Source: an uncultured Clostridia bacterium (GTDB lineage Bacteria; Bacillota; Clostridia; Christensenellales; Borkfalkiaceae). Taken from it: a stretch of 64,000 nucleotides of DNA. Positions 19,311-36,124 of this stretch are shown in pieces. Within the stretch, counting starts at the first letter, position 1, and the number at the start of each line of letters is the position of its first letter. The notes under the pieces are model-generated. The model did no database searches. It had not been told where the DNA came from and saw nothing but the letters and a program-made list of their open reading frames with translations. Position numbers and translations under genes: made by a program. The stretch lies in contig CALVWQ010000004.1 in assembly GCA_944367535.1 (NCBI GenBank), positions 30,300 through 94,299 on the forward strand, written 5' to 3'.

Positions 19311-20744
19311 TCAATTTTGTTTGTCAAGCGCTGACACGGCTTCGAGAATGGTTTTTTCCTTTGCTTTGAGCCCGAACTGGTCGACGGCAATTTTATTTTT
19401 TTCGCCGTGCGTAAGACAGCCCGCGCCGCCCACGCAACCGCCTACACACGCCATCCCCTCTATAAAATTGGCATCCGAAAGATTTTTGCTCTTTTTAATG
19501 AGTGCTACTTTGCAAGCCTCTATACCGTCGCAGGAAACGGGCTTTAAATTAAAGTCCGTAAGTCCCTGTTCTTTAAGCCCCTCGGCGACGGCATCCGCAA
19601 GTCCGCCGCAACGCGCAAAAATTCTGCCGAAATAAGAGGCATTGTCAAGACTGCTTTCGGGGAGAGTGGTAATATCAATATCTTTGCTGTCGAAAAGAGC
19701 CTGCAATTCTTCGAATGTCATCGCCACGTCCACATAATCCTTGACTTCTTCCCTGCGCACTTCCGCTTTTTTTGCGGTGCAAGGTCCTATGAATACTACC
19801 TTTGCGCCTTTGAATTTATCCTTAATATATTTCGCGATAGTCGCCATAGGCGAAAGATTGTGCGAAATATACGGAACTAGTTCCGGAAAACTTTTCTTTA
19901 CGTAATCAACAAAAGCGGGACAGCAAGAACTAGTTAAAAAACCCTTTTCGGCGAGCTCTTTGGATTCCGCCTTTGCCACCATATCTGCGCCGAGAGCGGC
20001 TTCCATCACCGTATCGAATCCGAGTTCTTTAATGCCAGACACGACCTGCCCGAGTTTCGCATAAGAAAACTGGCTTGAAATCGACGGTGCCACAACCGCG
20101 TACATTTTATATGCCGTGTTGTTTTTGCTGTTTTTAAGCAGTTCTATTACGTTTACGATAAAAGATTTATCTGTTATCGCCCCGAACGGACACTGATACA
20201 CACACGCGCCGCATGATATACATTTGGAATCGTCTATTTTAGCGGCTTTATTCTCGTCCATCGATATGGCTTTTATTTTACAAGCCGTCTGACATGGTCT
20301 TTTGAAATTATGAATTGCGCTGTAAGGACAGACTTTTGCGCAAGCGCCGCACTCCACGCATTTATTCTTGTCGATATGCGCTTTCTGGTGCTCGTCGAAT
20401 GTTATTGCGCCCATGCGGCAGACATCCTCACAGCGGTGCGCAAGACAACCCCTGCAAGCGTCGGTAACTTCGAATCCGCCCATAGGACACTCATCGCAAG
20501 CTATGTCTATAACCTGAATGACGTTGCCATCTTCATTGCAATCGCTCATGGCGAGTTTTACCCTTTCCGTGAGAATTGCTCGCTCCTTATACACGCAGCA
20601 GCGCATCGTGGGCACTTTGCCGGGTACGATTATCCTGGGAATGTCGATAGCTGTTTGCGGAAGTCTGCCCGCCCAAGCCTCGCGCGCCACCTCTCGCAGG
20701 ACTTTATATTTAAGATGCTGAACTTTGGTATCGAATTTTCTCAT
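19311..20744 (-). CDS. [FeFe] hydrogenase, group B type
   Basis: 477 residues. The N-terminal third carries several ferredoxin-like clusters (CDECPMGGFEVTDACRGC, CVECGACAKVCP, CISCGACVYQCP). The H-cluster domain follows with L1 TSSCCPAFVDYV, L2 IGPCTAKKAEV and L3 EGMACVGGCVGGAG, all expected Cys ligands present. The N-terminus MRKFDTKVQHLKYKVLREVA is what I recall for the clostridial group B (TIGR04105-like) enzymes. It is cytosolic and would evolve or sense H2 with ferredoxin as partner. The ATG at 20744 is preferred over 20762 because it gives this N-terminus; the ribosome-binding site is weak in both cases. No HydEFG maturase genes are in the window. It is separated from the energy operon by 172 nt and a hairpin. 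Confidence 0.9.
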   Translation of the reverse strand: MRKFDTKVQHLKYKVLREVAREAWAGRLPQTAIDIPRIIVPGKVPTMRCCVYKERAILTERVKLAMSDCNEDGNVIQVIDIACDECPMGGFEVTDACRGCLAHRCEDVCRMGAITFDEHQKAHIDKNKCVECGACAKVCPYSAIHNFKRPCQTACKIKAISMDENKAAKIDDSKCISCGACVYQCPFGAITDKSFIVNVIELLKNSKNNTAYKMYAVVAPSISSQFSYAKLGQVVSGIKELGFDTVMEAALGADMVAKAESKELAEKGFLTSSCCPAFVDYVKKSFPELVPYISHNLSPMATIAKYIKDKFKGAKVVFIGPCTAKKAEVRREEVKDYVDVAMTFEELQALFDSKDIDITTLPESSLDNASYFGRIFARCGGLADAVAEGLKEQGLTDFNLKPVSCDGIEACKVALIKKSKNLSDANFIEGMACVGGCVGGAGCLTHGEKNKIAVDQFGLKAKEKTILEAVSALDKQN

Positions 20745-20884
20745 AATACCCCGATTTGACATGCGGTCCGCCCCGCATGGTTATTACATATTCTCAATAT
20801 TTAATTTACTTTTTCAGTAGGTTTTTCGGTGTGGTCAATTTCTATATAATATATATTCCCCGCAATATTACGAGTTTATAATCA

Positions 20885-20916: not shown

Positions 20917-22386
20917 TTACATTAAAATAACGAGGAACTGCGATACTAAAACGACCGCAACCAGCGCTATCGGATAAGTCGCCGCATAAGCGGAGGCGAC
21001 GTCGTCCGTCCCCGAAACGTTTATTAAGGTTCCGAGCGCCGGAGTACTCGTCATACCGCCCGTAATGGATCCGAGATTGTTCAAAAGACCGATTTTCAAT
21101 ACGTGCTTTGCGAAGAAGAAACCGATGAACATCGGCACAATCGTCATGACCGCGCCGCCGATAAACCCGTAAAGCACGAGCATGCCGCCGAGTTCCGATT
21201 TACTGATTTCACTGACGAGGCTTACTCCTCCCGACACGCCTGCGCCGATAAGGAATAACATGAGCCCGAATTCACGGAATACTTTAATGGTCTTTTCGGG
21301 TACGTCGAGCGAAAGTTTGCCTATCTTACCGAAATGCCCGAATATTAAGCACATTATGAGCACGCCGCCCGTATTACCGAGCGAGAAACACGCGCCGTCA
21401 TAACCTTTGCCCGTAAGCGGAATGGTTATTGAGCCCACCGCTATCCCGCAGACGACTGCGAGTGCAAAAGGCATAAGCCCGAACGGGTCGCATTCTAAAA
21501 GTCCTTCTCTTTTCACATGCAGTTCTTTTGCGCCCGCAGTGAGAATGAGTCTTTCCTTGCTCATGTCGGCTTTCATAATCTTGGGGACGAGTTGCACGAA
21601 AAGCACGACCCCCACGACGCCGAACGGATACGCCACCGCGTGTCCGAGCGTCACGGAATTTCTCAAAGAGGCATCCGCCGCTTCTTTTGCCGCCGAAAAG
21701 CCCGGCGTGGTCGTCAGCGCGCCCGAAAGCACGCCTGCGGAAAACTCGGGGCTTATTCCCGGAATAAGCGTAAATAAAGCCGCAACCGCGCCGCCCGCGA
21801 CGATTATGAGCACGCCGAGAAGCACATACGATTTTGCGTTCTTTTTAAGATTTTTGAAAAAACTCGGACCTGCGATGAATCCTACCGCAGCGACAAACAG
21901 AATAAGTCCGATATTCTGCACAATGTTCTCAAAATAGCCGTTGAGCGTGGATTCGGTGTCCTGCATATAAAAGACGTCGAATATAGGCGCGTCTTTAAGC
22001 CACGGAAGCGTACATAGATAACCGAACAAAATAGCGACGAGGAACACGCCCGCAGTACCGAGCGAGACGCCCTTTATGGTTATTCTGCCGAGCAGATACC
22101 CTATCAGCGCGACGAGGAAAAGTCCCGTGAGAAGCGCTATGACCTGACTGACGTTGAATACTTCCTCTACGCCGTTATCGACTTTAAGCGCGTTTACGAT
22201 ACACCATGCCGCAATTCCGCCGGCAATCAAAACCGCTAAGGTTATCCAAAGCCACTTTAAGTTGCGTTTTTTCTCGGGCGCGCCGTTAGAATTCCCCGCG
22301 CCCTCTGTCACGACGGAAGCTTCGGCGCCGCCGTTTTCGGAAGCTACTGCTTCGGAAACCTCCGTTTTTTCAATTTCTTTTTCCAT
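20917..22386 (-). CDS. Aspartate:alanine exchanger (AAE) family transporter, candidate dicarboxylate/succinate exchanger
   Basis: 489 residues. A Glu/Ala-rich cytosolic N-terminus (1-45) precedes two homologous sets of membrane helices. Each set has the AAE hallmark: SGALTTTPGFSAAKEAAD (about 230) and GSITGGMTSTPALGTLI (about 445). The family includes AspT, YidE-type permeases and the succinate exporter SucE1. The RCK_C domains usually found between the halves are absent. AAGGAG precedes the ATG, 42 nt after the fumarate reductase flavoprotein stop, so it is very likely the last gene of the fumarate operon. Exchange or export of succinate, fumarate or aspartate is inferred from family and context. 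Confidence 0.82.
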   Translation of the reverse strand: MEKEIEKTEVSEAVASENGGAEASVVTEGAGNSNGAPEKKRNLKWLWITLAVLIAGGIAAWCIVNALKVDNGVEEVFNVSQVIALLTGLFLVALIGYLLGRITIKGVSLGTAGVFLVAILFGYLCTLPWLKDAPIFDVFYMQDTESTLNGYFENIVQNIGLILFVAAVGFIAGPSFFKNLKKNAKSYVLLGVLIIVAGGAVAALFTLIPGISPEFSAGVLSGALTTTPGFSAAKEAADASLRNSVTLGHAVAYPFGVVGVVLFVQLVPKIMKADMSKERLILTAGAKELHVKREGLLECDPFGLMPFALAVVCGIAVGSITIPLTGKGYDGACFSLGNTGGVLIMCLIFGHFGKIGKLSLDVPEKTIKVFREFGLMLFLIGAGVSGGVSLVSEISKSELGGMLVLYGFIGGAVMTIVPMFIGFFFAKHVLKIGLLNNLGSITGGMTSTPALGTLINVSGTDDVASAYAATYPIALVAVVLVSQFLVILM

Positions 22387-22428
22387 TTTTAACTCCTTAT
22401 AACTGAAACGACTTTAAACCGCTGTCTA

Positions 22429-24033
22429 TTACATATCCTTTCTTCTGTAATCGGGAAGAATACGTGGCGAACTCACTTTGGGCGAAATCTTTGCTGCGGC
22501 AAGTTCTTTCTCGAACGCGTCGACGTGCGAAAGCGAAAGTTTTCCGACTTTCACGGTCTTTGCTTTTTCGCAGGCGTTACTGCCCGCATTTCTGCCGAAT
22601 ACTATTATATCGAGAAGCGAATTGCCCATGAGCCTGTTCCTGCCGTGTATGCCTCCCACCGCTTCGCCCGCGACAAACAGATTTTCGACGCCGCTCTGCC
22701 CGTCCGCCGAAATATCGATACCGCCGTTCTGATAATGGAGCGTCGGATAAACAAGAATAGGTTCTTTTCTTATATCGATACCGTATTTGCCGAACATTCT
22801 CATCATTGCGGGGATACGTTTTTCGATTGTCCCCTCGCCGCCGAGCTGTTCAATCATCGGAGTATCGAGCCATACGCCTACGCCGTCGGTAGTCTTTACT
22901 CCTTTATTTCTCTTATTACATTCTCTTATTATCGTAGAGGCGGTTACGTCCCTTGTTTCAAGAGAATAAACGAACGCGTTTCCGTCCGCATTGACGAGCT
23001 GCGCACCGAGAGAGCGCACCTTTTCCGTCACGAGCGCGCCGAAAATCTGGGTAGGTTCGGCAACGCCGGTGGGGTGATACTGCAAGGTATCCGCGTAAAG
23101 AAGTTTCGCTCCCGCACGATAAGCGAGAATAAGTCCGTCCGCCGTCGCGCCGTAGTGGTTGGAGGTCGGGAAGCCCTGATAGTGAAGCCTGCCCGCGCCG
23201 CCCGTGGCGATTATGACCGTCTTGGCTTTGGCGATGAGAATCTCCTTCGTCTCCATGTTGAGAAGAACCGCGCCGCAAGCCTGACCTTTATCGTCCTTTA
23301 TTATCTCTATCGCCGCGGTGAAATCGACGACGGGGATATTTCTGTTCAATACTTCGTCGCGCAGAGTTCTCATTATTTCCGCGCCCGAATAGTCTTTGCA
23401 TGCGTGCATTCTTTTTCTCGACGTGCCGCCGCCGTGCGTGGTTATCATGGTGCCGTCGGGGGCTTTGTCGAACATTACCCCGAGGTCGTTAAGCCACTTT
23501 ATGGCGTCGGGCGCCTCGTTAACGAGTTTATATAAAAGTTCGTGTTTTGCCGCAAAATGGCCGCCGCCGAACGCGTCGAGATAGTGTATTGCGGGGCTGT
23601 CGTTTTCTTTATCCGCCGCCTGTATTCCGCCTTCCGCCATCATGGTATTGGCGTCACCTATGCGGAGTTTTGTTACCATCATGACGTTTGCGCCGCCCAT
23701 GTGCGCCGTAATCGCCGCGGAAGAACCCGCGCCGCCGCCGCCTATCACCAGCACGTCCACGTCGTAATCGGGTTTATCGAGATTGATTTGATAATCTCTA
23801 ATCCTCGGTCTGCCCTGCAAGAGGTCGGCAAGTTCGTGCAGAACCTTATCGCCTTTATTGGGTCCGACTTTAAGCGTCTCGTATGCGCTCTCTATATAGT
23901 CGGGATGGTTTTCTTTTAATACGGTATCCTTTTCTTCGGCAGACATTCTGGGGAAAAGATTTTTAAGCCTTTCCGCCCTCGTCGCCTCAACTTTTTTCAT
24001 CGACTGCAACTGTTCTTCGGTATAATGATACAT
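22429..24033 (-). CDS. Soluble fumarate reductase flavoprotein subunit (FrdA/TfrA-like)
   Basis: 534 residues. A helical 90-residue N-terminal extension precedes the FAD-binding Rossmann motif VLVIGGGGAGSSAA (about 95-108). Further family motifs: AEGGIQAA, GGGTSRKRMHACKDYSG, the substrate-site HPTG, and the C-terminal GEAVGGIHGRNRLMGNSLLD, which retains the R/NR region of fumarate reductases. It ends soon after this and lacks the usual C-terminal helical domain of SdhA/FrdA, as in shorter thiol:fumarate reductase (TfrA)-like proteins. No membrane-anchor genes are nearby, so the enzyme is predicted to be cytosolic. It lies 11 nt after frdB in the Hdr/Flx operon and probably reduces fumarate to succinate. 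Confidence 0.87.
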   Translation of the reverse strand: MYHYTEEQLQSMKKVEATRAERLKNLFPRMSAEEKDTVLKENHPDYIESAYETLKVGPNKGDKVLHELADLLQGRPRIRDYQINLDKPDYDVDVLVIGGGGAGSSAAITAHMGGANVMMVTKLRIGDANTMMAEGGIQAADKENDSPAIHYLDAFGGGHFAAKHELLYKLVNEAPDAIKWLNDLGVMFDKAPDGTMITTHGGGTSRKRMHACKDYSGAEIMRTLRDEVLNRNIPVVDFTAAIEIIKDDKGQACGAVLLNMETKEILIAKAKTVIIATGGAGRLHYQGFPTSNHYGATADGLILAYRAGAKLLYADTLQYHPTGVAEPTQIFGALVTEKVRSLGAQLVNADGNAFVYSLETRDVTASTIIRECNKRNKGVKTTDGVGVWLDTPMIEQLGGEGTIEKRIPAMMRMFGKYGIDIRKEPILVYPTLHYQNGGIDISADGQSGVENLFVAGEAVGGIHGRNRLMGNSLLDIIVFGRNAGSNACEKAKTVKVGKLSLSHVDAFEKELAAAKISPKVSSPRILPDYRRKDM

Positions 24034-24044
24034 AATGCGTCTCC

Positions 24045-24719
24045 TTATTTCTCGATATCTCTCTTATTGTAGAGTTCTTTGAGTTCTTCCACGGGCTTGT
24101 TCATCACGTCTTCTATAAGTTTCACGAAGTCGCCGTTGTTTATCTCCGCGACCCTCTTTTCGAGGTGTTCGGACTTGGGCGCGATATACTTCCCGTAAAG
24201 TCTTCTCGCGAGTTCGGCAACCTGCGGATGCGATATGCCCGCGGGGCAACGAGCCGAACATACACCGCACATCACGCAGTCAAAACTCTCGTCCGCACAC
24301 TTTTTATATTCGCCGCGCTGTGCGTAAGCGATATATTGCATTACGTTGAGTCCCTGCGTACAGCTCTTTGTACAGGCATTGCAGCCTATGCAGGAATAAA
24401 TCTCGGGATAAAGCTGCATCATTATCTGTTCGGTGGGTTTGATTTTCTCTATATCGTAAACCTGTTTTACGAGCGGGAAGAAAGGAAGCGTCGCGACGTA
24501 CATTCCCTCTTCGACCTGCGTCTGACATGCAAGGCACGTTTTGAGTTCCTGTTTTCCCTGAATACGGTATATGGTCGCGCAGGCGCCGCAGAACCCGTTT
24601 CTGCACCCGCAGCCGCGGACGAGCTGATATCCCGCATATTCCATCGCCTTCATTATGGTAAGACTTTCGGGAACGCGGTATTTCTTACCGAAAAAATAAA
24701 CATTTACAAAGTTTTCCAT
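24045..24719 (-). CDS. Fumarate reductase iron-sulfur subunit (FrdB/TfrB N-domain-like)
   Basis: 224 residues. Residues 1-90 form a [2Fe-2S] plant-ferredoxin-like domain with CGCRNGFCGAC and CLAC. The C-terminal part has two cysteine sets, CIGCNACTKSC (about 112) and CVMCGVCSARCPAG (about 146), for [4Fe-4S]/[3Fe-4S] clusters. This is the FrdB/SdhB layout, but it is shorter at the N-terminus and has no membrane-anchor partner. In the methanogen thiol:fumarate reductase this module is fused to an HdrB-like CCG domain; here the CCG protein is a separate gene in the same operon. It lies 18 nt after flxA and should pass electrons from the Hdr/Flx part to the flavoprotein. Confidence 0.87.
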   Translation of the reverse strand: MENFVNVYFFGKKYRVPESLTIMKAMEYAGYQLVRGCGCRNGFCGACATIYRIQGKQELKTCLACQTQVEEGMYVATLPFFPLVKQVYDIEKIKPTEQIMMQLYPEIYSCIGCNACTKSCTQGLNVMQYIAYAQRGEYKKCADESFDCVMCGVCSARCPAGISHPQVAELARRLYGKYIAPKSEHLEKRVAEINNGDFVKLIEDVMNKPVEELKELYNKRDIEK

Positions 24720-24737
24720 GAGTAATCTCCTTAAAAA

Positions 24738-25565
24738 TCAATATTCGTCGGGGAGTTCGTCCAACTCGTCCATTCTGAAAACGGGTCCGTCCTTACAGAC
24801 AAACTTATCTCCCACGTTGCACCTGCCGCACTTGCCTATTCCGCATTTCATTCTTAGTTCAAGCGTGGTGTAGACTCTCGACTTATCGAAACCGAGTTCC
24901 AAAAGTCCCTGTAAAGTGAATTTAATCATTATCGGGGGTCCGCAGAGCACTGCCGTCATGGTGGGGTCGAGTCCCAATTCCTTGACGTACGCGGGAACGA
25001 ATCCCACGTGTCCGTCCCAGCCTTCCTGAGGTCTGTCTATCGTGAGATAGACGTTGAAGTCGGGTTCATTCATCCATTCGGTCTTGATTTCGTTTATGTC
25101 CACGAGGTCGTCCATACTCCTCGCGCCGTAAACTATAACCACTTTACCGTAATTTTTTCTGTAATGACGTACATAGTTTATTACGCTCCTTAAAGGCGCA
25201 AGTCCTATGCCGCCCGCGATAAAGAGAAGGTCTTTGCCCTTGAATTCGCCTTCCACGGGGAAATTCTTGCCGTAAGGTCCTCTGACCGTAACCTGCTGTC
25301 CCACTTCAAGCGAATGCAGGACTTCCGTAAGACAGCCGCATTTCTTTATCGAAAATTCCATAAACTCCTCGTTTGTCGGCGACGAGGTTATGGAAAACAT
25401 GGCTTCGCCCACTCCCGGCACGGAGAGCATGGCGCATTGTCCGGGCTTATGTTCGAAGGGCTTTTTCCCGTCGAGTCCGAGCACTCTGAAAGTTTTGACG
25501 TCTGGCGTGTCGCGCCTTATATCCGTAATGACGCCTATGCTCGGTATGAGATGTTCGTTAATCAT
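24738..25565 (-). CDS. flxA: FlxA-like FAD/NAD(P)H-binding oxidoreductase subunit
   Basis: 275 residues. The ferredoxin-NADP reductase fold is visible: FAD region PGQCAMLSVPG with SITSSP, the NAD-binding segment FIAGGIGLAPLRSVINY (about 120-137) and the nicotinamide-side LCGPPIMI. The C-terminal LRMKCGIGKCGRCNVGDKFVCKDG carries four cysteines for a [2Fe-2S] cluster, as in PyrK, AsrB and FlxA. In FlxABCD-HdrABC complexes this subunit oxidises NADH and feeds electrons inward. It overlaps flxB by 8 nt. AsrB of anaerobic sulfite reductase is the closest alternative, but no AsrC is present and the gene set matches Flx. Confidence 0.85.
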   Translation of the reverse strand: MINEHLIPSIGVITDIRRDTPDVKTFRVLGLDGKKPFEHKPGQCAMLSVPGVGEAMFSITSSPTNEEFMEFSIKKCGCLTEVLHSLEVGQQVTVRGPYGKNFPVEGEFKGKDLLFIAGGIGLAPLRSVINYVRHYRKNYGKVVIVYGARSMDDLVDINEIKTEWMNEPDFNVYLTIDRPQEGWDGHVGFVPAYVKELGLDPTMTAVLCGPPIMIKFTLQGLLELGFDKSRVYTTLELRMKCGIGKCGRCNVGDKFVCKDGPVFRMDELDELPDEY

Positions 25566-26586
25566 TCTCTTTATCTCCTAAACGTTTGATGACTTTTACG
25601 ATATTGAGCCTCTGTGGGCATTTGTTCACGCACCTGCCGCATCCCACGCAAGAATACGTTCCGCCGTACTGCGAGGGATAATACACGAGTTTATGCATGA
25701 ATCTCTGACGGTATCTTTGCAGTTGGGTCGTCCTGCTGTTTGCCGCCGCCATCTGCGTGAAATCGGAATACATGCAGGAATCCCAGCAACGGAATCTTAT
25801 CACTCCGTCGTTGGTCTTAAAATCTCTTATATCGAAACACTGACACGTGGGGCACACGAAAGTACACGTACCGCAGCCGAGACACGCTTCCGAGAGAGAT
25901 GCCCATTCCTCCGAAGCAAAAAGTTTATTGAGGTTTTCGGGCTTAAATACCGACAAATCAAGGTGCGTAAACGGAAGTTTTTCCATAATCTCGCGGGTAT
26001 TCTTCTTTTGAGCTTCCACTTCCTTTTCGCCGCCTTCCGTACCGAAAGCGCCGATAATTTCCATAAGTTTGGCACCCTTATCGGTATTCGACTTAAAATA
26101 CAGATATTTGTCGTCCGCATAGCAGGTAACGTCGCCTTTCGGGTCGGCGGAATCTATTCCGAACACGCTGCAAAAACAGCTCTCCTCGGGTTTTGCGCAC
26201 GCCATGGTAACTATCACCGCGGCGTCGCGCCTTTCCTTATAATAAGTGTCCACGGGTTCTTGCAAAAACACTTTATCCAAAATATCGAACGACCTGTAAT
26301 CGCAGCCGCGCACGCCGAAAATCACGAAGGGCGCGACTTCCTTCCTGTCGTCTATAATCTCGATTTTCTTGCCTTCCGCCTTAAAGCGCATCATCGTTTC
26401 GCTCTGCGGGAAGAAAAAATCTTTTGCGGACTTAACCGTTTTTAAGGTATCCAAAGAAACATCCGCGCCCTTTTCCCACGGCGCGTAATTCACTTCTCCC
26501 GCCGATTTCACGGGAATAAAAAGCGGCATCTTTTCGGATATGGCGGCATACATGCCGTCAGCCTTTGTTCTATCTACTTTAATCAT
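25558..26586 (-). CDS. flxB: FlxB-like 4Fe-4S dicluster subunit (AsrA-like)
   Basis: 342 residues with an AsrA/FlxB layout. The N-terminal domain (about 1-210) contains isolated cysteines such as GVRGCDYRSFDILD and a CxxxxCFCS motif (PEESCFCSVFG). Two classical clusters follow: CLGCGTCTFVCPTCQCFDI (about 235) and CVGCGRCVNKCPQRLNI (about 317). It overlaps flxC by 4 nt and flxA by 8 nt. It is predicted to be a cytosolic electron-wiring subunit between the NADH-oxidising FlxA and the FlxD/HdrA core. Confidence 0.83.
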   Translation of the reverse strand: MIKVDRTKADGMYAAISEKMPLFIPVKSAGEVNYAPWEKGADVSLDTLKTVKSAKDFFFPQSETMMRFKAEGKKIEIIDDRKEVAPFVIFGVRGCDYRSFDILDKVFLQEPVDTYYKERRDAAVIVTMACAKPEESCFCSVFGIDSADPKGDVTCYADDKYLYFKSNTDKGAKLMEIIGAFGTEGGEKEVEAQKKNTREIMEKLPFTHLDLSVFKPENLNKLFASEEWASLSEACLGCGTCTFVCPTCQCFDIRDFKTNDGVIRFRCWDSCMYSDFTQMAAANSRTTQLQRYRQRFMHKLVYYPSQYGGTYSCVGCGRCVNKCPQRLNIVKVIKRLGDKEND

Positions 26587-27566
26587 TTGCGCACCCCCGC
26601 ATTGAAAACATCGTTAGGCTCGACATCGCCGACTGTATAATCGGTGAGCGGAGTTTTTCCGTCAGCCGCCTCGCCCGCCTGATATTCGCCGTAACAGGTA
26701 TTGATGTCTTTGATGAATTTTCTGTTCAAAAGGTGAAGCGGAATGCGCTGCGGGCACACCCTGCTGCATTCGCCGCAGTCGGTGCACCTGCCCGAAACGT
26801 GGAACGCACGGATGATATGGAAAAGTTGTTCTTCGAATTCATCGTCGTTGGCTTTCGCCGCCACTCCCGACTGCGGATTGTCGAACACGCATTTCACGCA
26901 CGAACACGCGGGACAAACGTTACGGCACGCGTTACAGCGTATACACTTCGAAAGCTGGCTTTTCCAGAAGGCAAAGCGTTCCGCCTCGGTCATTTTTTCG
27001 AGTTTTTCGACCTCTTCAAACCTGTCGCTCGGTGCTTCTTCCATTTCGCCCAATACTATCGTTTCGTCCACACCCACGAGTTTTTTGCTCTTGCATGTAA
27101 GACATTTGATAAGAAGAATATCTTCCTTATTCATTACCGACTTTCCGTAAAGAGAAGAAACGGTAACTTCTTTTCCTGTTTCAGAAGCCTCGGTAACCGC
27201 CGAAACGCCCTTTTCCTTAATCTTTTCTATATCGAGCTTTCCGTTGCACTCTATGCCTATCGCGATTATGTTGTCGCGATTGACACGGTGCTCCTTTACG
27301 AGCTGATTTAAACTGAAAGTATCGCAGGGTTTAAGAAACACCGCGGTCTTGCCGGGTTTTTTACTTACCTGAATGAGATACTTTGAAAGATTTGCGCCGC
27401 AGAAACCGTTATATACGAAATCACGTAGCTGTTCTTTGCTGTCGAATTCGGCGGGAGAAGGGTCGAAATAAAACTCCCCTTTTTTCCAGCCCACGACGCG
27501 TGCCGCTTCTCCGCTTTCGAGCAGATTTTCCGCTCTCTCGATGATTTTATTTTCCAAGTCAGTCAT
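26583..27566 (-). CDS. flxC: FlxC-like iron-sulfur subunit with FrhB/FdhB-like N-domain
   Basis: 327 residues. The N-terminal two-thirds resembles the F420-hydrogenase/dehydrogenase beta-subunit fold (KPCDTFSLNQLVKEHRV, IGIECNGK). The C-terminal part carries CIRCNACRNVCPACSCVKC (about 210) and CTDCGECSRVCPQRIPL (about 262), two cubane-type clusters. AAGGAGAAATAA precedes the ATG, 3 nt after flxD. A bacterium using NADH and no F420 would employ this subunit as a wire. The relationship to FlxC is from gene order plus domain layout. Confidence 0.82.
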   Translation of the reverse strand: MTDLENKIIERAENLLESGEAARVVGWKKGEFYFDPSPAEFDSKEQLRDFVYNGFCGANLSKYLIQVSKKPGKTAVFLKPCDTFSLNQLVKEHRVNRDNIIAIGIECNGKLDIEKIKEKGVSAVTEASETGKEVTVSSLYGKSVMNKEDILLIKCLTCKSKKLVGVDETIVLGEMEEAPSDRFEEVEKLEKMTEAERFAFWKSQLSKCIRCNACRNVCPACSCVKCVFDNPQSGVAAKANDDEFEEQLFHIIRAFHVSGRCTDCGECSRVCPQRIPLHLLNRKFIKDINTCYGEYQAGEAADGKTPLTDYTVGDVEPNDVFNAGVRK

Positions 27567-27569
27567 TAT

Positions 27570-28010
27570 TTATTTCTCCTTGACCCTGAGGTCGGTTATA
27601 CGCCTGTTTTCACCGAGTTCAGTAATTTTTTTAACAAAATCGTTCATTACCTGCGAAAAACGTGCGCCTTCGGCCGCGGAAACCCATTCTACGCGCGTAC
27701 GTTCTTTTTCGATTCCCATATAGTTAAGGAAATCGAAGAGCATAGCCATTCTGCGCCTCGTATAATAGTTACCCGTAACGTAATGGCAGTCGCCGGGATG
27801 ACAACCGCACAGAATCACGCCGTCCGCACCGCGCTGAAAGGCTTTCAGAATAAACATGGGATTAACTCTGCAAGAGCAGGGCACCCTTATTATTTTAACG
27901 TTTGCGGGATAGGAAAGTCTGCCCGAACCCGCGAGGTCGGCACCCGCATACGAGCACCAGTTGCAACAAAAAGCCACGATATTCGGCACGAATTCTTTTA
28001 TCTCTTGCAT
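27570..28010 (-). CDS. flxD: FlxD/MvhD-like [2Fe-2S] subunit
   Basis: 146 residues with the MvhD (methyl-viologen hydrogenase delta) domain: CCNWCSYAGADLAG at the N-terminus, RVPCSCRVNP, and the conserved GADGVILCGCHPGDCHY in the middle. The cysteines bind a [2Fe-2S] cluster. In FlxABCD-HdrABC and MvhADG-HdrABC complexes this small subunit docks on HdrA and delivers electrons to the bifurcating flavin. It overlaps hdrA by 13 nt, in keeping with tight stoichiometry. Confidence 0.9.
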   Translation of the reverse strand: MQEIKEFVPNIVAFCCNWCSYAGADLAGSGRLSYPANVKIIRVPCSCRVNPMFILKAFQRGADGVILCGCHPGDCHYVTGNYYTRRRMAMLFDFLNYMGIEKERTRVEWVSAAEGARFSQVMNDFVKKITELGENRRITDLRVKEK

Positions 28011-29989
28011 ATCGCTTCAACCTCCGACATAATCTGTTTGGAAGAAAATCCCGACAAATCCATCGCGCCGGAAGGACAGGTTACGGTGCACGCGCCGCAA
28101 CCCTGACAGACCGCGGGATTGACCGAGGCGACTCTTCTTACTTCCGTCTTGCCGCCGCCTATGCGGAATTCCTTGTCTACATAAGTTATCGCGCCGTAAG
28201 CGCAGACATTCGCGCACTGACTGCAACCGTTACACATCATTTCGTTGCAGTGCGCCACGCACGGATTGGTCTTTAATTTATCTTTTACGAGAAGCCCTAT
28301 GACCTTCGCCGCGCAAGCAGAGGCCTGCGAGACGGTCTCGGGAATATCTTTCGGACCCTGACACATACCCGCGAGGTATACGCCCGCCGTCGGGCTCTCC
28401 ACGGGACGGAGTTTGGGATGAGATTCGTTCATGAAATTATTTGTGTCTATGCTCGCGGTAAGAAGGGTTGCAATCTTTCTTACCGAAGGTTCGGGCTCGA
28501 TTGCCGTCGCAAGCACGACGAGATCGGACGGAATAATCACCTGTTCGTTATCGATGAGGTTGGAGCCCTGCACCATGAGTTTACCGTTCTCGTTATATAC
28601 TTTACCGACCATACCCTTGATGTAATCGACGCCGTACTGTTCTACCGCGCGACGGTAGAACTCATCGTAATTCTTGCCGGGAGTACGCACGTCAATATAA
28701 AAGACGTGGACTTCGGTATCGGGATACTTTTCTCTTATAAGCATGGCGTGTTTTGCCGTATACATGCAGCATACTTTGGAGCAATACGGTTTTCCGCAGC
28801 CCGAAACGTCACGCGAGCCGACGCACTGAATAAAGGTTATGACCTTGGGGTGCGTCTTGTCGGACGGGCGCAGAAGCACTCCGTTCGTCGGACCTGCGGC
28901 ATTCATAAGCCTTTCAAGTTCAAGAGAGGTGATAACGTCGGCGTTATCGCTGTATCCGTATTCATTGAATGCGTCTATATTAATGGGTCTGAAACCCGTG
29001 GCGACGACTATCGCGCCGTATTCGCGGTCGACGAACTCGTCTTTCATTTCGTAATTTATCGCACCCGCACCGCAGAATTTCTGACAGATACCGCACTTGC
29101 CCGTTTTAAGTTTTATACACTGTTCGGGGTCTATTACCGCCACGTTGGGTATAGCCTGCGCAAACGGAATATATATTGCGGTACGGTTATTGAGATTCAT
29201 GTTGAATTCGTTGAGGCCCTTTTTGGATGGACATTTTTCCATACAGACCTTACAGCCCGTACACTTCTTTTCGTCAACGTATCTCGCCTTCTTACGTATC
29301 TTAACTTTGAAGTTTCCTACAAAACCCTTAACTTCTTCCACTTCCGAATAAGATAAAATGTCAATCTTATCGCTCTGCGCGCAATCTACCATTTTGGGCG
29401 TAAGTATACAAGCCGAGCAGTCAAGCGTCGGGAACGTCTTGTCGAGTTGCGCCATTCTGCCGCCGATAGTGGCGTTCTTTTCCACGATATCGACTTCGAA
29501 TCCCGCCTCGGCTATATCGAGCGCCGCCTGAATACCAGCGATACCTCCGCCTATTACGAGCGCGCGCTTGGTTACGGGGCTTTCGCCTTCCTGAAGGGGA
29601 GTATTCAACCGCACTTTGGCGATGGCGGTACGGATAAGTATCAGCGCCTTTTCTGTCGCCTCATCCATATCTTTGTGAATCCAAGAGCACTGCTCTCTTA
29701 TGTTGGCGACTTCAAGCATATACGGGTTAAGCCCTGCCTCCGCCGCCGCCCTTCTGAAAGTAGCTTCGTGCATTCTCGGAGAACACGAGCCTATGACGAC
29801 GCCCGTAAGATTATGCTCTTTTATCGCGTTCTTTAACAGCTGCTGTCCGTTTTCCGAACACATGTATTGGTAATCCGCGGAATAAACCACGCCGGGTTCC
29901 GCCTTTATCGCTTCGGCGACGCGCTTTACGTCTACCGTCGCGGCGATATTACTTCCGCACCAACAAATAAAAACACCTATTCTCTGCAT
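27998..29989 (-). CDS. hdrA: HdrA-like flavoprotein, candidate electron-bifurcating subunit
   Basis: 663 residues, full-length HdrA. In order: an N-terminal thioredoxin-reductase-like domain with an unusual cluster (CWCGSNIA, CSPRMHEATFR), FAD Rossmann motif RALVIGGGIAGIQAALD (about 143-159), the HdrA signature FPTLDCSACILTPKM (about 186-200), clusters CTGCKVCMEKCP and CGICQKFCGAGA, then FIQCVGSRD, and two C-terminal ferredoxin clusters CNGCSQCANVC and CQGCGACTVTCPSGA. HdrA carries the flavin that splits electron pairs to ferredoxin and a second acceptor. Situated between hdrC and flxD. No selenocysteine or fused hydrogenase domain is seen. Confidence 0.94.
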   Translation of the reverse strand: MQRIGVFICWCGSNIAATVDVKRVAEAIKAEPGVVYSADYQYMCSENGQQLLKNAIKEHNLTGVVIGSCSPRMHEATFRRAAAEAGLNPYMLEVANIREQCSWIHKDMDEATEKALILIRTAIAKVRLNTPLQEGESPVTKRALVIGGGIAGIQAALDIAEAGFEVDIVEKNATIGGRMAQLDKTFPTLDCSACILTPKMVDCAQSDKIDILSYSEVEEVKGFVGNFKVKIRKKARYVDEKKCTGCKVCMEKCPSKKGLNEFNMNLNNRTAIYIPFAQAIPNVAVIDPEQCIKLKTGKCGICQKFCGAGAINYEMKDEFVDREYGAIVVATGFRPINIDAFNEYGYSDNADVITSLELERLMNAAGPTNGVLLRPSDKTHPKVITFIQCVGSRDVSGCGKPYCSKVCCMYTAKHAMLIREKYPDTEVHVFYIDVRTPGKNYDEFYRRAVEQYGVDYIKGMVGKVYNENGKLMVQGSNLIDNEQVIIPSDLVVLATAIEPEPSVRKIATLLTASIDTNNFMNESHPKLRPVESPTAGVYLAGMCQGPKDIPETVSQASACAAKVIGLLVKDKLKTNPCVAHCNEMMCNGCSQCANVCAYGAITYVDKEFRIGGGKTEVRRVASVNPAVCQGCGACTVTCPSGAMDLSGFSSKQIMSEVEAICKR

Positions 29990-30010
29990 CTTATATTCTC
30001 ACTTTTCAAC

Positions 30011-30397
30011 TCATTTGTTGTATTTTCTGTATGCGCTGACGAGTAACTGCTGCGGAATCAACTCGTCTACTATCGGCGGGATATCCTCCGCGGCGAGTCC
30101 GTTATTGTTCTGCGCGCGGGTAAACGTGGTTCTCACCGCCTCTATAACCTGCGCGGGAGCAACTCCTCTCGGACAGCGTTCAACGCAAGCCATGCATGAA
30201 AAACAGTTCCATATTGCCGAACAATTAAGAAGTTCTTCCACTTTTCCCTTTTCCAGCATGGTTACAAACTGATGCGGTTTTATGTCCATATCCTTATACG
30301 CGGGACAACGCCCCGAGCATTTGCCGCATTTCATACATTTTCTGACGTCGGTACCGGAAATTTCTTTCATGATTTCGGTCATTTCGGTTTTATCCAT
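30011..30397 (-). CDS. hdrC: HdrC-like iron-sulfur protein
   Basis: 128 residues, small like other HdrC proteins. Two [4Fe-4S] motifs, CMKCGKCSGRCPAY (about 21) and CFSCMACVERCPRG (about 65), wire electrons from HdrA to HdrB. GGGGTGAAATA precedes the ATG, which shares one base with the hdrB stop codon (TAATG), a coupled junction. Confidence 0.92.
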   Translation of the reverse strand: MDKTEMTEIMKEISGTDVRKCMKCGKCSGRCPAYKDMDIKPHQFVTMLEKGKVEELLNCSAIWNCFSCMACVERCPRGVAPAQVIEAVRTTFTRAQNNNGLAAEDIPPIVDELIPQQLLVSAYRKYNK

Positions 30398-31173
30398 TAT
30401 TTCACCCCCAACGCTTCCGCGAGCAGTTCGGTAAAGTAACGCGCGGGAAGAATCCCGGCTCCGTTTACCTGTAAATTATAAAGGCACAGGGGACATGCGG
30501 TAATAACTTCTTCCGCGCCCTTTTCTTTTGCGGAATTAAGAATTTTCGCGCTTCTTTCTTTCGGAAGCGTCTGATTTTTCAGCGAAACGTACGCTCCGCA
30601 GCACTCGTTTCTGAACGGGTAAATGACGGGCGTTCCGCCGATTGCGCGGATAAAATCCTCGATAATAGAAGGATTTTCCGGATTATCGAATGCGAGCACT
30701 CCGCTCGGTCTTAAAAGAAGACATCCGTAATAGGCTCCCACTTTCCTGTTAAGGGGTTTTACGACTTTTTTTGCTATCTCGTCGAAACTGACCTCGTTTT
30801 TCAGCATTTCGAGATAATGTATGACCTGTGTTTCGCCGTTGTAACTTTCTTCGAGTGCGAGATAGTTGTTTGCCTTCGTCCTGATGTTTTCGTCGTTTTT
30901 CATGTCGTCGTTGACGCGCTTAATTACGTTATGGCAAGCCGAACAGAGCGTAAGAAGTTTTCCGCCGTTATGCTTGGCGTAATCGAGAGCGCGGACTGCC
31001 GAAAGTTTAGTGGCAATCTCGTTTTTCGCCATGGGATAGACAGCGCCGCAACACTGCCAGTCCTTTACTTCCTCCATCTCCACGCCGAGCGCTTCCGCCG
31101 CTTTACGCGCGTAAGCGTCGAGTTCTTTGGCTTTCGTCTTTAACGTACAGCCGGGATAATAACAAATCTTCAT
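30397..31173 (-). CDS. hdrB: HdrB-like CCG-domain protein
   Basis: 258 residues with two CCG domains: first YPGCTL..WQCCGAV..LCSACHN, second YYGCLL..NECCGAY..ACPLCLYN. In HdrB these bind the two non-cubane [4Fe-4S] clusters that cleave a disulfide. The ATG at 31173 is chosen because AAGGTG lies 7 nt upstream; a GTG three codons earlier overlaps that site. It begins 48 nt after fumC. Bacteria lack the CoM-CoB heterodisulfide, so the acceptor here is another disulfide or, as argued in the findings, the fumarate reductase itself. Confidence 0.92.
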   Translation of the reverse strand: MKICYYPGCTLKTKAKELDAYARKAAEALGVEMEEVKDWQCCGAVYPMAKNEIATKLSAVRALDYAKHNGGKLLTLCSACHNVIKRVNDDMKNDENIRTKANNYLALEESYNGETQVIHYLEMLKNEVSFDEIAKKVVKPLNRKVGAYYGCLLLRPSGVLAFDNPENPSIIEDFIRAIGGTPVIYPFRNECCGAYVSLKNQTLPKERSAKILNSAKEKGAEEVITACPLCLYNLQVNGAGILPARYFTELLAEALGVK

Positions 31174-31221
31174 ATATTGCACCTTGTAAAAATTTAATAG
31201 TCGGTATAATACTTATATCAA

Positions 31222-32598
31222 TCAGTCCTGCGGATAAGCCATTTTTTCGGGTTGGAACACCTCATCGAATTTTTCCGCAGTCAAAAACCCGAGTTTTACG
31301 CAGGCTTCCTTCAAGGAAATATTTTCTTTATAAGCGGTCTTTGCAGTCTTTGCCGCGTTTTCGTATCCGATATAGGGATTGAGAACGGTAACCAACATCA
31401 AAGAATTGTAAAGATTATGTTTCATCTTTTCCTTGTTTGCACGGATTCCCGTAGCGCAGTTTTTCTCGAAAGAGGTGATGCTGTCCGCGAGAAGTCTTGC
31501 CGATTGCAGGAAATTATACGCTATTACGGGCATGAACACATTCAGCTCGAAATTCCCCTGCGAAGCACCCATTCCGACAGCCACGTCGTTTGCGATGACC
31601 TGAACGGCAACCATAGTCATGGATTCGCACTGCGTGGGATTGACCTTACCGGGCATGATTGACGAGCCGGGTTCGTTTTCGGGTATAAATATTTCCCCGA
31701 GTCCGTCGCGGGGTCCCGAAGCGAGCCAACGCACGTCGTTGGCTATCTTCATGAGGTTAGCCGCGAGCGCTTTAAATGCCCCGTGCGCAAACACCATGGC
31801 ATCTTTTGAAGTAAGCGAATGAAATTTATTCTCCGCGGTAACGAAAGTTTTTCCCGTCAGTGCGCTCACCTGTGCCGCGACTTCGACGTCGAAACCTTTG
31901 GGAGCGTTCAGCCCCGTCCCCACTGCAGTTCCTCCGAGCGCAAGCTCTTTTAAACCTGCAAGGGAAAGCGTAATCTGCTTTTTCGTAGCTTGGAGCATGA
32001 CCCGCCAGCCGCTTATTTCCTGTGAAAAAGCAATCGGCACAGCATCCTGTAAATGCGTTCTGCCGCTTTTTACTATACCCTCATTTTCTTTTTCCAGACG
32101 AAGGAAAGTATTGATAAGTTTATCCATGGCGGGGAAAAGCCCGTCCTCTATTGCCAGAACCGCCGCTATATGCATCGCAGTCGGAAAAGTATCGTTAGAA
32201 CTCTGACTCTTGTTTATATCATCGTTCGGGTGAAGAAGTTTTTTGCCCGCAATCTCGTTGCCGCGATTGGCAATAACCTCGTTGGCGTTCATATTGGACT
32301 GCGTTCCGCTGCCCGTCTGCCATACGACGAGCGGGAAATTGTCGTTAAGTTCACCGGAAATGACCTCGTCGCACGCGGCGCATATCGCCACACGCTTTTC
32401 GTCGGAAAGTTTCCCGAGATTGAAATTGGCAATCGCCGCAGCCTTTTTCAGGATACCGAACGCGTGAGTGATTTCTCTCGGCATGATTTCCGTGCCGATT
32501 TTGAAATTCTCGAAACTGCGCTCGGTCTGCGCCGCCCAATACTTATCGGCGGGGACCTTCATTTCGCCCATTGTGTCTTTTTCGATACGATACTCCAT
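31222..32598 (-). CDS. fumC: Class II fumarate hydratase (fumarase C)
   Basis: 458 residues, the standard FumC length. The N-terminus [28 protein letters not shown], the mid-region [12 protein letters not shown] and the superfamily signature [15 protein letters not shown] (the mobile catalytic-serine loop) identify the aspartase/fumarase class II family. [13 protein letters not shown] matches FumC closely. GTNANEV-type aspartase features cannot be fully excluded, but the C-terminus ([11 protein letters not shown]) favours fumarase. It converts malate to fumarate in the cytosol and is the first gene of the Hdr/Flx/Frd operon, supplying the terminal acceptor. Confidence 0.93.
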
Positions 32599-32927: not shown

Positions 32928-32956
32928 ATTATAACACAAACATTCCTTTAATGCAA
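32928..32956 (-). promoter_or_regulatory. Promoter of the fumC leader / ncRNA
   Basis: Minus-strand TTGCAT (32951-32956), 17-base spacer, TATAAT (32928-32933). The -10 is perfect, the -35 is moderate. Confidence 0.55.
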
Positions 32957-33430
32957 ACAAATTTTCTCCGTAAATTTTTCTATTTTTCCTCTTTTAGGCT
33001 CTATTTTCTTTTTAGGCAGTTTTTGAAAAACTTTTACCAAACTATTTATTCCATAAATCGCAGCACGCGATTATGTTATAAAACAGCGAATCTAAACGAA
33101 AAAATAAATTTTATAGGGCATGAAAATGGGAAAATACTTTTAAAAGTAAATAACAGAAATTAAAAAAGCAATTATAAAGTTTTGAAAGTTTTTATCAGTG
33201 TTTCTGATAAAAAATTAACATATATGAAAAAACAAATAGTCGAATATTTTTGCTAAGATTTTAGCATCAAACAAAAATATTATGAAAGATATATTAAAGA
33301 ATATTAAAATTTTCAGCTATTATCGAAAGTATAACGCATAAACTGTGCATCAAGGATAATATAAATACAATAAAGCAAAATAATTTTATTAAATGCAATT
33401 AAATTAAAAATTGATTTATTTGATATTAAA
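32957..33430. other. AT-rich gene-free stretch left of the island
   Basis: About 470 bases, extremely AT-rich. It contains one perfect 10-bp AT hairpin (33189-33198 with 33204-33213). Short frames here have no ribosome-binding sites; no gene is supported. Confidence 0.45.
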
Positions 33431-33470
33431 AAACCGCGAGCTGAACTTTATCCGTTCAGCTCGCGGTTTT
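33431..33470. terminator. Bidirectional terminator beside the tRNA fragment
   Basis: Perfect 16-bp stem (33431-33446 with 33454-33469), flanked by A and T tracts. It is directly 3' of the displaced tRNA-Arg end, where the original tRNA terminator would be. Confidence 0.85.
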
Positions 33471-33472
33471 AA

Positions 33473-33516
33473 TGGTACTCCCTGCGGGAATCGAACCCAC
33501 AACTGCCCCTTAGGAG
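33473..33516 (-). other. 3' half of tRNA-Arg(CCU), presumed attachment site (left)
   Basis: Read on the minus strand it starts at the anticodon loop (CTCCTAA, anticodon CCT), continues through the 3' anticodon stem GGGGC, a T-arm (GTGGG-TTCGATT-CCCGC), an acceptor 3' strand AGGGAGT, discriminator A and encoded CCA. The sequence on the 5' side (GCGAAAAC-like, AT-rich) cannot form the missing anticodon stem, D-arm or acceptor strand, so this is a tRNA half and not a gene. Such fragments are left when an element integrates in a tRNA. Confidence 0.8.
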
Positions 33517-33816
33517 TTTTGCGAGGTTGTAAAAGTATCTTTTTTGATGTTAAAAACATTAAAAAACGTGCATTTTGTGCATTATTTTGCGTCTATTTTA
33601 AGCGTTTTTATTCAAAATTTCAAATTTTTTTCGTGTTTTGCAACAACTTTTATTTGAAATTTATACTTTTTTTATACTTTTTTTGATTAGAAAATGATTT
33701 AATTTTTATCGAAAAAAAGCCGTATCCCTTCGTGAGAGCACCTATATTTATTTGCATATATTATAGCAGATTATTAAAGTTATGACAAGTTGTGGGGGGG
33801 GGTACAGCCTTTTTAT
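33517..33816. other. Gene-free left arm of the island
   Basis: About 300 AT-rich bases with ATTTATACTT (33659-33668) and a second TTTATACTTT 12-13 bp on, candidates for integrase arm sites. It ends with a run of nine G residues (33794-33802), very unusual in this context. Confidence 0.4.
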
Positions 33817-34240
33817 TTATAAAAATTCGCAACCTTGTTTTTCTCCTTTCGCTACGTTACCGTAAATGAACACGGTTGCATACAGCGTGGGAAACGCAGT
33901 AGAAACGTCGTACATAAGTCCTTCGCTTACGACCGCGCCCGATAGCGACGCGCCCTCTTTTTTCATAAGATATACCACCGCGGCCGAATTGCTTAACACT
34001 TGTTTCATAGTGGCTATCCATACCACGCCGCCGATAAGGCTCGGCAACAGGTATATGACGCGGCAAACGTAATGCCCGAAAACCCTTCTGAAAAGCACGT
34101 AGGTCGTGCAAAGCGAAATGGAAAATACTATTCCGTTGGATATAAGCCACAGAGTGAACGAGCGCAAAATCATCGTTAAGATATTCGTTCCGTACTCGTC
34201 CGCGTGCGTAAGCCCGTGCCACACCTGTTTATACGCCCGA
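33817..34240 (-). pseudogene. Internal fragment of a sugar ABC transporter permease
   Basis: About 140 codons resembling the middle of a MalF/LplB-type permease: WHGLTHADEYGTNILTMILRSF, a membrane segment, then FGHYVCRVIYLLPSLIGGVVW. The reading frame upstream hits a stop just before 34240 and there is no start codon with a ribosome-binding site, so the N-terminal membrane segment is missing. The C-terminal half with the EAA loop is missing as well. A remnant of an earlier sugar-uptake operon at the island margin. Confidence 0.65.
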
Positions 34241-34307
34241 ATTTATATGTAAACACTCAAAATTTCTTATAATTTATTGTATTCGTCAGTTCAAACCTGA
34301 CAGGTTA

Positions 34308-34335
34308 TTAAAAAATATCGGTTCGCGCCGATATA
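34308..34335 (-). terminator. Terminator downstream of the 110-aa ORF
   Basis: Minus-strand stem TATCGG/CCGATA (34316-34321 with 34328-34333, loop CGCGAA) followed by six T residues. Confidence 0.6.
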
Positions 34336-34376
34336 AAAAATGATGGTCTATAAGAAAAGACTTATAATGCCGTCAA

Positions 34377-34709
34377 TTATCTTCGCCCGAAGAAGTTGTC
34401 GTTTAAGCCCCGAATTCGCCTTGTATAGCCTTTCAAAAACTTGCTTTTAGTTGTTTTAGTCCCTTTCGCTTTTACGGTTTTCATAACGGGTACGAGTTCT
34501 CCGTCAACGAATTCCACCTGCGTTAATACTACCCCGTTAGGAGTAGTAATCGTTATAGGTTCTTGCTTATCCCGAACGGGTTTTAATTTCTCGTCCACCG
34601 TTATTTCTTTTTCTTGCTTTTTAAGTCGCGGCTTCGTCCACCGCGTAGTATGCGGTATCGCTATATAATGCGATCCGTTGGAATATATCTTTGCTTTCTC
34701 ATATATCAC
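34377..34709 (-). CDS. Small unknown protein of mobile-element type, possibly a truncated Rep-like protein
   Basis: 110 residues, Lys/Arg-rich. The N-terminus (MIYEKAKIYSNGSHYIAIPH) resembles what I remember of the start of a clostridial replication-initiator-like protein found in integrated elements, but the protein is far shorter than those (several hundred residues) and the HUH motif region is absent. The C-terminus SKFLKGYTRRIRGLNDNFFGRR does not ring a bell. It follows a frameshifted helix-turn-helix gene and precedes a terminator. Probably a decayed element gene; the family link is unverified. Confidence 0.4.
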   Translation of the reverse strand: MIYEKAKIYSNGSHYIAIPHTTRWTKPRLKKQEKEITVDEKLKPVRDKQEPITITTPNGVVLTQVEFVDGELVPVMKTVKAKGTKTTKSKFLKGYTRRIRGLNDNFFGRR

Positions 34710-34844
34710 GTTTAACTCCTTTGTCGTATAAAGTGGCGCAAGGGGTAGTTTCCTCGTCGCATTTATACAACGAATTTATGAAATAACTGTTCTGAACCTT
34801 TAATTCGGCTATTATTTTTATTTTTTGTTACTTACACATTCTCT

Positions 34845-35184: not shown

Positions 35185-35468
35185 TTTGTGTCTTAAGTGT
35201 AAACCACCAATACGCAATATCCTTGCGTATTGAAAAAAATAATTTTTAAAAACTTAAATTTTTATAATAAAAAACCCGACAAACAACCAAAACTATACGT
35301 TTCAAGTCGTCTATCAGGTTTTATAATCTTTGATAACAATTTTTATTCTGTAATATACATTCTCTTTCGCAAATAATTATTTACGACACACTTGCCATAC
35401 CAATAGGTGAAACGACCTAATTGCCAAATATTTATATATGTTAAAAAATAAGTTTACAAAGCAAGTTT
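35185..35468. other. Gene-free stretch in the decayed margin
   Basis: About 280 AT-rich bases. No ORF, promoter or known element recognised. Confidence 0.4.
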
Positions 35469-36085: not shown

Positions 36086-36124
36086 ATTTTCCGTTAAACC
36101 TCTTTCTTTTTCGGCAATATCCCT

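Follow-up and report, generated by a model that had tools for sequence, protein, structure and literature searches.

An operon joining flx-hdr and soluble fumarate reductase genes in uncultured Clostridia and its likely role in NADH-driven, quinone-free fumarate reduction

The window analysed here is a 64,000-nucleotide (nt) stretch of contig CALVWQ010000004.1 (positions 30,300 to 94,299, assembly GCA_944367535.1) of an uncultured Clostridia bacterium, and its central feature is an operon in which the genes of a complete FlxABCD-HdrABC module adjoin those of a fumarate reductase, FrdAB. Scanning of the window for open reading frames (ORFs) revealed eleven successive minus-strand ORFs between 20917 and 32598, in the order fumC-hdrB-hdrC-hdrA-flxD-flxC-flxB-flxA-frdB-frdA-AAE transporter (Table 1). 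A sequence-only reading of the same DNA had listed these eleven genes and described the junctions from hdrB to frdA as overlaps or gaps of at most 21 nt; the list was borne out by the ORF scan and the family matches, and the junctions were −1, +21, −13, +3, −4, −8, +18 and +11 nt in order. That reading had also proposed that NADH reduces ferredoxin and fumarate together in the cytosol. We consider the arrangement real, conserved and functionally coherent, and this mechanism its likeliest explanation: with a probability of roughly 0.65, electrons of NADH are bifurcated to ferredoxin and, via HdrB and FrdB, to fumarate, in a cytosolic, quinone-free, succinate-forming system. Bifurcation to these two acceptors fitted best with synteny, co-occurrence, cofactor sites and genome content.

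Co-occurrence was followed in 81 genomes of relatives including the window's own (44 from one genus, five more from the family and 32 from the order). FrdB at 75% identity or higher was found in 39 of them, the others giving weak ferredoxin-like matches or none. HdrB was found in 37 genomes, all of which also encoded FrdB, so that it never occurred without its partner; 42 genomes had neither protein and two had FrdB alone. Completeness is 70% for one of these two (G013) and 84% for the other (G032), and in both the contig with frdB stops before hdrB is reached. Outside the window's genus, an identical set of 11 among the 37 genomes carries both proteins; the Fisher tests made on co-occurrence ignore kinship. 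The full nine-gene core, hdrB to frdA, was present in 30 of the 38 loci fetched at the order level, the other eight being cut by contig ends. Scanning of named genomes with FrdB gave at least 590 stretches confirmed at E ≤ 1e-3, the best 80 of which were examined. The core lay in one order in 62 of these 80 loci, and in the remaining 18 the contig reaches less than 5.2 kb upstream of frdB, which is too short to hold it. The AAE gene stood directly beside frdA in 55 of the same best 80 (some of which are cut downstream). By their titles, these 80 are Clostridia metagenome-assembled genomes (MAGs), for example, of Candidatus Scatosoma, and many of the titles point to the gut of ruminants, chicken, horse or rabbit as the sample source, the others giving none. 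This synteny had been suggested as a check together with the proposal, and rare co-occurrence, named there as the outcome that would speak against it, was not seen. Synteny and co-occurrence together rule out a chance co-location of hdr-flx and frd.

FrdA consists of 534 amino acids (aa) and its alignment with E. coli FrdA begins at residue 88. The first approximately 75 residues form a conserved extension lying beyond the best stretches shared with solved relatives, a candidate docking part. The alignment rows in which conservation was counted include near copies and contigs common to both collections (distinct rows: 105 of 113 for HdrB, 144 of 156 for FrdB and 136 of 144 for FrdA). E337, R340 and H433 were found in 144 of 144 FrdA rows and R467 in 143 (one gap); their counterparts in E. 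coli FrdA lie in its catalytic motifs. At the position of the His that holds flavin adenine dinucleotide (FAD) covalently in E. coli FrdA, Asn (N129) was present in 143 of 144 rows and His in a single one (L069). E. coli enzymes without this His keep fumarate reduction and oxidize succinate poorly, thus the Asn would fit a one-way reductase. The predicted model of FrdA (predicted template modelling score 0.80, mean predicted local distance difference test value (pLDDT) 75.3) had the E. coli quinol-fumarate reductase 1kf6 as its top Foldseek match (E 2.6e-25, template modelling score approximately 0.6, root-mean-square deviation 5.5). FrdB (224 aa) keeps Cys 39/44/47/65, 110/113/116/120 and 148/151/154/158 in 156 of 156 rows. 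Its second cluster motif is a complete CxxCxxCxxxC 4Fe-4S motif in all 156 (and in an alignment of 22), at the place where quinol enzymes have a 3Fe-4S site; the full motif would therefore suit electron transfer to another iron-sulfur protein, not to a quinone.

The claim that anchor subunits are absent held for those searched for in the window's own genome (94.25% complete, 3.49% contamination): no Sdh_cyt match exceeded the cut-off (best 12.9 bits against 25.8) and Fumarate_red_C gave no match at E ≤ 10, while Fumarate_red_D was not searched for. UbiA was not found over its cut-off either (best 14.9 bits against 34.2), and RnfC is present (469.5 bits, cut-off 245.95). A single FrdA-family protein with a full match is encoded in this genome, the next best having E 0.002. 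The fold and the catalytic residues of FrdA are shared with E. coli FrdABCD, but no Sdh_cyt or FrdC anchor and no UbiA were found here, Asn replaces the covalent-FAD His and the 4Fe-4S motif is full where the quinol enzyme has the 3Fe-4S type. A quinol enzyme (quinol:fumarate reductase or succinate dehydrogenase) was rejected on the grounds of the anchors, UbiA and the 4Fe-4S motif. The same three points speak against a membrane-associated quinol enzyme formed by FrdAB and HdrB in the manner of SdhABE or methylmenaquinol:fumarate reductase, which would, moreover, leave HdrA and FlxABCD without explanation; even though HdrB scored slightly higher with SdhE (135.9 bits, cut-off 500) than with CoB_CoM_SS_B (133.2 bits), both scores are far under cut-off, and we regard such an enzyme as very improbable. 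Equally little can be said for FrdA being an L-aspartate oxidase or acting on another enoate, with fumarate not its natural acceptor. In NCBIfam, FrdA was nearest to TfrA (333 bits, far under the cut-off of 718), the nadB model was not far behind with 268.6 bits, and the FAD site of NadB also lacks the covalent His. The nadB cut-off, however, is 452.75, and no NadA over cut-off was found in the genome, on which grounds NadB was rejected; furthermore, a fumarase gene heads the operon, and fumarase and malic enzyme genes precede frdBA at a locus elsewhere in the phylum (L108).

From its sequences, the Hdr module looks complete and HdrB chemically competent. All seven subunits of FlxABCD-HdrABC are encoded together, with an HdrB bearing two ligand sets for noncubane clusters and a full-length HdrA bearing FAD and ferredoxin-like iron-sulfur domains. 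Over its whole length, HdrA could be aligned with solved HdrA and with the HdrA models, though it scored under the cut-offs of the latter. Positions 1–641 of the HdrA2 model are covered by HdrA and 642–774 by FlxD, as would result from the splitting of an HdrA2-type protein. Eight Cys of HdrC are kept in 112 of 112 rows.

The mechanism has been proposed since 2019–2020 and is not new as a proposal. The sequence-only reading knew of no described complex of this composition, which proved to be mistaken: the available part of PMC7282089 describes, by locus tag, a "succinate operon" of Pseudoclostridium thermosuccinogenes consisting of fumarate hydratase, Flx-Hdr, fumarate reductase and a hypothetical protein proposed as succinate transporter, and assumes that the fumarate reductase is linked to ferredoxin reduction via Flx-Hdr, citing Ramos 2015 and a 2019 preprint (Koendjbiharie and van Kranenburg). 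The block order is the same as in the window (two fumarate reductase tags; the Flx-Hdr tag range fits seven genes), as far as a locus-tag description of blocks can be compared, and so is the proposal, although that organism is a thermophile and ours an uncultured Clostridia MAG. According to the same part of that paper, the operon rose approximately 4-fold under CO2 limitation (not significantly for all subunits) and H2 nearly abolished succinate; both effects would count in favour of the coupling. The FlxABCD-HdrABC of Desulfovibrio vulgaris (Ramos et al. 2015, as described in citing papers) is likewise a seven-subunit NADH dehydrogenase/heterodisulfide reductase module, but DsrC is the proposed acceptor there, whereas the module of the window adjoins FrdAB and the own genome gave no DsrC match over cut-off, for which reason DsrC was rejected as the acceptor. 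TfrAB of Methanobacterium thermoautotrophicum also joins fumarate reductase to HdrB-type CCG chemistry, and TfrA is the NCBIfam model nearest to FrdA. In the window, however, the CCG protein is the separate HdrB and is not fused to FrdB, in which no CCG domain was found, and the scores are far under the Tfr cut-offs (with the TfrB model, 37.2 bits for FrdB against 385, and 34.7 bits for HdrB over positions 262–464 of 488); membership in Tfr was rejected accordingly. The available part of PMC6315080 reports tfrAB-korABCD-flxABCD-hdrABC clusters in tubeworm symbionts and Thioflavicoccus and raises a complex of Flx-Hdr, KorABCD and TfrAB, which resembles the present case in the possible union of Flx-Hdr with a fumarate reductase and differs from it in the 2-oxoglutarate:ferredoxin oxidoreductase genes and in serving the reverse tricarboxylic acid cycle of autotrophs. 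No biochemical proof of Flx-Hdr/fumarate coupling was found in the literature searched, which left out preprints and most subscription papers. To this the present analysis adds that the genes co-occur strictly within the window's order and are rearranged or unlinked in other genomes, together with the cofactor signatures (4Fe-4S in FrdB, Asn at the FAD site, HdrB clusters intact) and the finding that neither UbiA nor anchor genes could be detected.

In a phylum sample of 398 genomes, FrdB at 46% identity or higher was found in 39 (the own genome included), and 38 loci were compared. Twenty-one of these were Hdr-linked and eight more belonged to genomes with hdr-flx elsewhere. The order frdBA-hdrBCA-flxDCBA (class B) was found at four loci and hdrCBA-flxDCBA-frdBA (class C) at one. 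Class D (11 loci) consists of hdrCBA, another large protein resembling HdrA, flxD, a protein similar to FlxC (22–26% identity, no Pfam family) and frdBA; two of its loci (L123, L128) are cut, and the hdr genes of L129 are in a different order. In L125 (12232-15444) and relatives, the place of FlxA/FlxB is occupied by the second HdrA-like flavoprotein, which has approximately 1070 aa and Fer4 regions, and by an unnamed 367-aa protein. Downstream in class D (tested in the representative L125, in the others by clustering) lie genes for 2-oxoacid:ferredoxin oxidoreductase, whose alpha subunit scored over its cut-off and whose beta and gamma subunits scored below theirs, and for succinate-CoA ligase, and a malic enzyme fragment was found upstream in L125; with these genes at hand, the ferredoxin of the complex could serve two steps later in the reductive branch. 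Eight of the 17 genomes whose frdBA has no adjacent hdr (class F) hold hdr-flx clusters at another place: hdrBCA-flxDCBA in G090, G430, G265 (cut after flxB), G315, G290, G450 and likewise G171, and hdrCBA-flxDCBA, with hdrA in two ORFs, in G113. In the latter (L244:10610-12825), the two hdrA ORFs are in frame, with a TGA between them where DCSAC has its second Cys (C194 of the window), and a TGA likewise cuts flxD short; either TGA may encode selenocysteine, which some methanogens have in HdrA and VhuD. HdrB matches were also obtained in another four class F genomes (G119, G155, G160, G462); the one region of G119 picked by guess (L245) held no recognised Hdr gene. The best 27 HdrB matches among the 398 genomes were all in FrdB-bearing genomes, the 28th and 29th were not and the 30th was. 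Other neighbours of frdBA include an FMN_bind/Fer4 protein upstream at L104 and a pyruvate carboxylase ahead of it at L110 (homologues in L116 and L119). On a FrdAB tree of 71 rows (77 less six in which FrdA or FrdB was incomplete), supported by the Shimodaira–Hasegawa-like approximate likelihood ratio test (SH-aLRT) only and containing several long branches, the five Hdr-linked arrangements formed three groups parted by unlinked ones. The window's type (SH-aLRT 76 only), class B and the hdrCB-frdBA type (class E) were each one group, and at least three changes of the Hdr label were required, possibly a single gain plus two losses.

Several observations weigh against bifurcation to ferredoxin and fumarate. 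FrdAB is not tied to Hdr everywhere, and in this respect the original proposal did not stand: frdBA lacks adjacent hdr in 17 of 38 loci (class F), five of the 39 FrdB-bearing phylum genomes (G147, G151, G210, G376, G460) gave no HdrB match at E ≤ 1e-15, a cytochrome b561/Fer4 gene follows frdBA at L133 (homologues at L136 and L137 by clustering), and the class E clusters, found at five of 38 loci (L106, L113 (cut), L121, L131, L132), are hdrCB-frdBA without adjacent hdrA. HdrB-type proteins occurred in 122 of the 359 phylum genomes without FrdB, so only the HdrB subfamily near the window's is specific. The samples are weighted to near relatives, more than half of the 81 genomes belonging to one genus, and the absences from the own genome rest on a 94%-complete assembly. 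In the FrdA model, the segments holding the active-site residues (319–334, 433–435 and 464–471) have pLDDT below 50, thus the model is informative on fold only, and the FrdB model (pLDDT 54.6) is too poor for use. In P. thermosuccinogenes, rnf fell approximately 2-fold while the operon rose, and the effect of Na2S on succinate was opposite to that of H2 (PMC7282089, available part). Finally, all ten Cys of the two CCG motifs of HdrB are kept in 113 of 113 rows, and a working disulfide reductase would look alike.

Alternatively, two independent enzymes might share one operon, FrdAB being fed by ferredoxin, flavodoxin or another donor and Flx-Hdr having an acceptor of its own. The genomes with FrdB and no HdrB match, the b561/ferredoxin neighbour and the six of the 27 best-HdrB genomes whose hdrBCA-flxDCBA cluster is at a separate locus from frd (one cut after flxB) would all agree with this. 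We nevertheless find it rather improbable, considering that HdrB was always accompanied by FrdB among the relatives (37 of 37), that the nine genes keep a fixed order and that ferredoxin-driven fumarate reduction would waste the energy that Flx-Hdr saves. Judged by the varied neighbours of frdBA (b561/Fer4, FMN_bind/Fer4, hdr), FrdAB is thus a module that may pair with different partners, Hdr being the commonest of them in the genomes sampled.

With all its noncubane-cluster Cys in place, HdrB could also carry out a disulfide/thiol step, which opens the way to a relay: Flx-Hdr would split the electrons of NADH between ferredoxin and, at HdrB, a small disulfide, and the thiol would be re-oxidised by HdrB/FrdAB acting as a split thiol:fumarate reductase, with the same overall coupling via a diffusible thiol. 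The top NCBIfam score of FrdA being TfrA, the match of HdrB to part of the TfrB model and the class E clusters, which possibly encode such a split enzyme, are in line with it, and the available part of PMC7282089 mentions transfer to ferredoxin "and thiols". On the other hand, FrdB is devoid of the CCG domain that TfrB has, DsrC gave no match in the own genome, and the only CCG-family locus there, with both domains in one ORF, is hdrB, so one HdrB would need to do both half-reactions. The relay is therefore unlikely in our judgement, though it has to be reckoned with.

In the preferred mechanism, the bifurcation of NADH to ferredoxin and fumarate, NADH would enter at FlxA and the electrons would run through FlxB, FlxC and FlxD to the flavin of HdrA, where the pair would be split. 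One electron would go at low potential to ferredoxin, while the second, at high potential, would pass from HdrC to HdrB and, by direct transfer within a physical complex, to FrdB (2Fe-2S, two 4Fe-4S) and the FAD of FrdA, which would reduce fumarate to succinate. FumC would supply the fumarate from malate, and the AAE protein probably exports the succinate. Either Rnf, which would pump ions in doing so, or the B1 [FeFe] hydrogenase, a possible sink encoded beside the operon, would re-oxidise the reduced ferredoxin. There is an even chance, in our estimate, that the whole forms one soluble nine-subunit complex in which the noncubane clusters of HdrB serve as a wire to FrdB and not as a disulfide site, that Rnf makes an ion gradient from the ferredoxin, and that quinone-free fumarate respiration of this kind is common in gut-type Clostridia.

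Table 1. Genes of the operon and the adjoining hydrogenase gene (window coordinates)
Feature	Coordinates	Strand	Basis of assignment
fumC, class II fumarate hydratase	31222..32598	-	TIGR00979 fumC_II, 721 bits (cut-off 664.75)
hdrB, CCG-domain protein, ligands for two noncubane [4Fe-4S] clusters	30397..31182	-	GTG start; PDB HdrB match 7.5e-37
hdrC, two 4Fe-4S motifs	30011..30397	-	top match HdrC model, 61.9 bits, under cut-off 160
hdrA, FAD/4Fe-4S subunit	27998..29989	-	HdrA2 model 804 bits, residues 3-661, under cut-off 1100; PDB HdrA 1.1e-205
flxD, MvhD-like 2Fe-2S protein	27570..28010	-	PF02662 FlpD, 188.8 bits
flxC, 4Fe-4S protein	26583..27566	-	Fer4 families and place in the conserved operon
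flxB, sulfhydrogenase-beta/AsrA-like 4Fe-4S protein	25558..26586	-	NF040829, 177.2 bits, under cut-off 690
flxA, FAD/NAD(P)H-binding protein	24738..25565	-	NAD_binding_1, FAD_binding_6, DHODB_Fe-S_bind
frdB, one 2Fe-2S and two full 4Fe-4S motifs, without CCG domain	24045..24719	-	Cys motifs in alignment
frdA, fumarate reductase flavoprotein	22429..24033	-	FAD_binding_2; alignment to E. coli FrdA; Foldseek; conserved catalytic residues
AAE-family (Asp-Al_Ex) transporter	20917..22386	-	PF06826, 209 bits, two stretches
Group B1 monomeric [FeFe] hydrogenase, adjoins the operon	19311..20762	-	TIGR04105, 564.9 bits (cut-off 450)

TrkA_C gave no match at E ≤ 0.001 in the AAE protein. Promoter- and terminator-like sites in the region were not more frequent than in shuffled sequence, and the Rfam search of the window gave no match, also in the approximately 3.2 kb upstream of fumC (32930-36124), where only short ORFs (up to 135 aa) were found. 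Farther on, a 920-aa ORF (39447-42209) combines a PfkB/ribokinase domain with DUF4838, and a second DUF4838 protein is encoded 5 kb beyond it (47135-49138), near a rhamnogalacturonidase-like gene. Two long ORFs, 55598-59389 (1263 aa) and 60654-62714 (686 aa), had no Pfam match at 1e-8.

The potential of ferredoxin is near −420 mV, and by arithmetic with this value approximately −49 kJ per fumarate is left after coupling to ferredoxin. The potentials given for NADH and fumarate in the available part of PMC5861303 are −320 mV and +33 mV, respectively. Cells without quinones should be unable to harvest the drop from NADH to fumarate, and coupling to ferredoxin reduction would recover energy from it; the operon thus probably lets a quinone-less cell conserve energy as it forms succinate. 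The number of stretches confirmed in the named-genome scan shows the FrdB family to be widespread. If proven, the coupling would explain succinate formation in uncultured gut anaerobes without a membrane fumarate reductase, and the Hdr family would gain a fumarate-coupled member.

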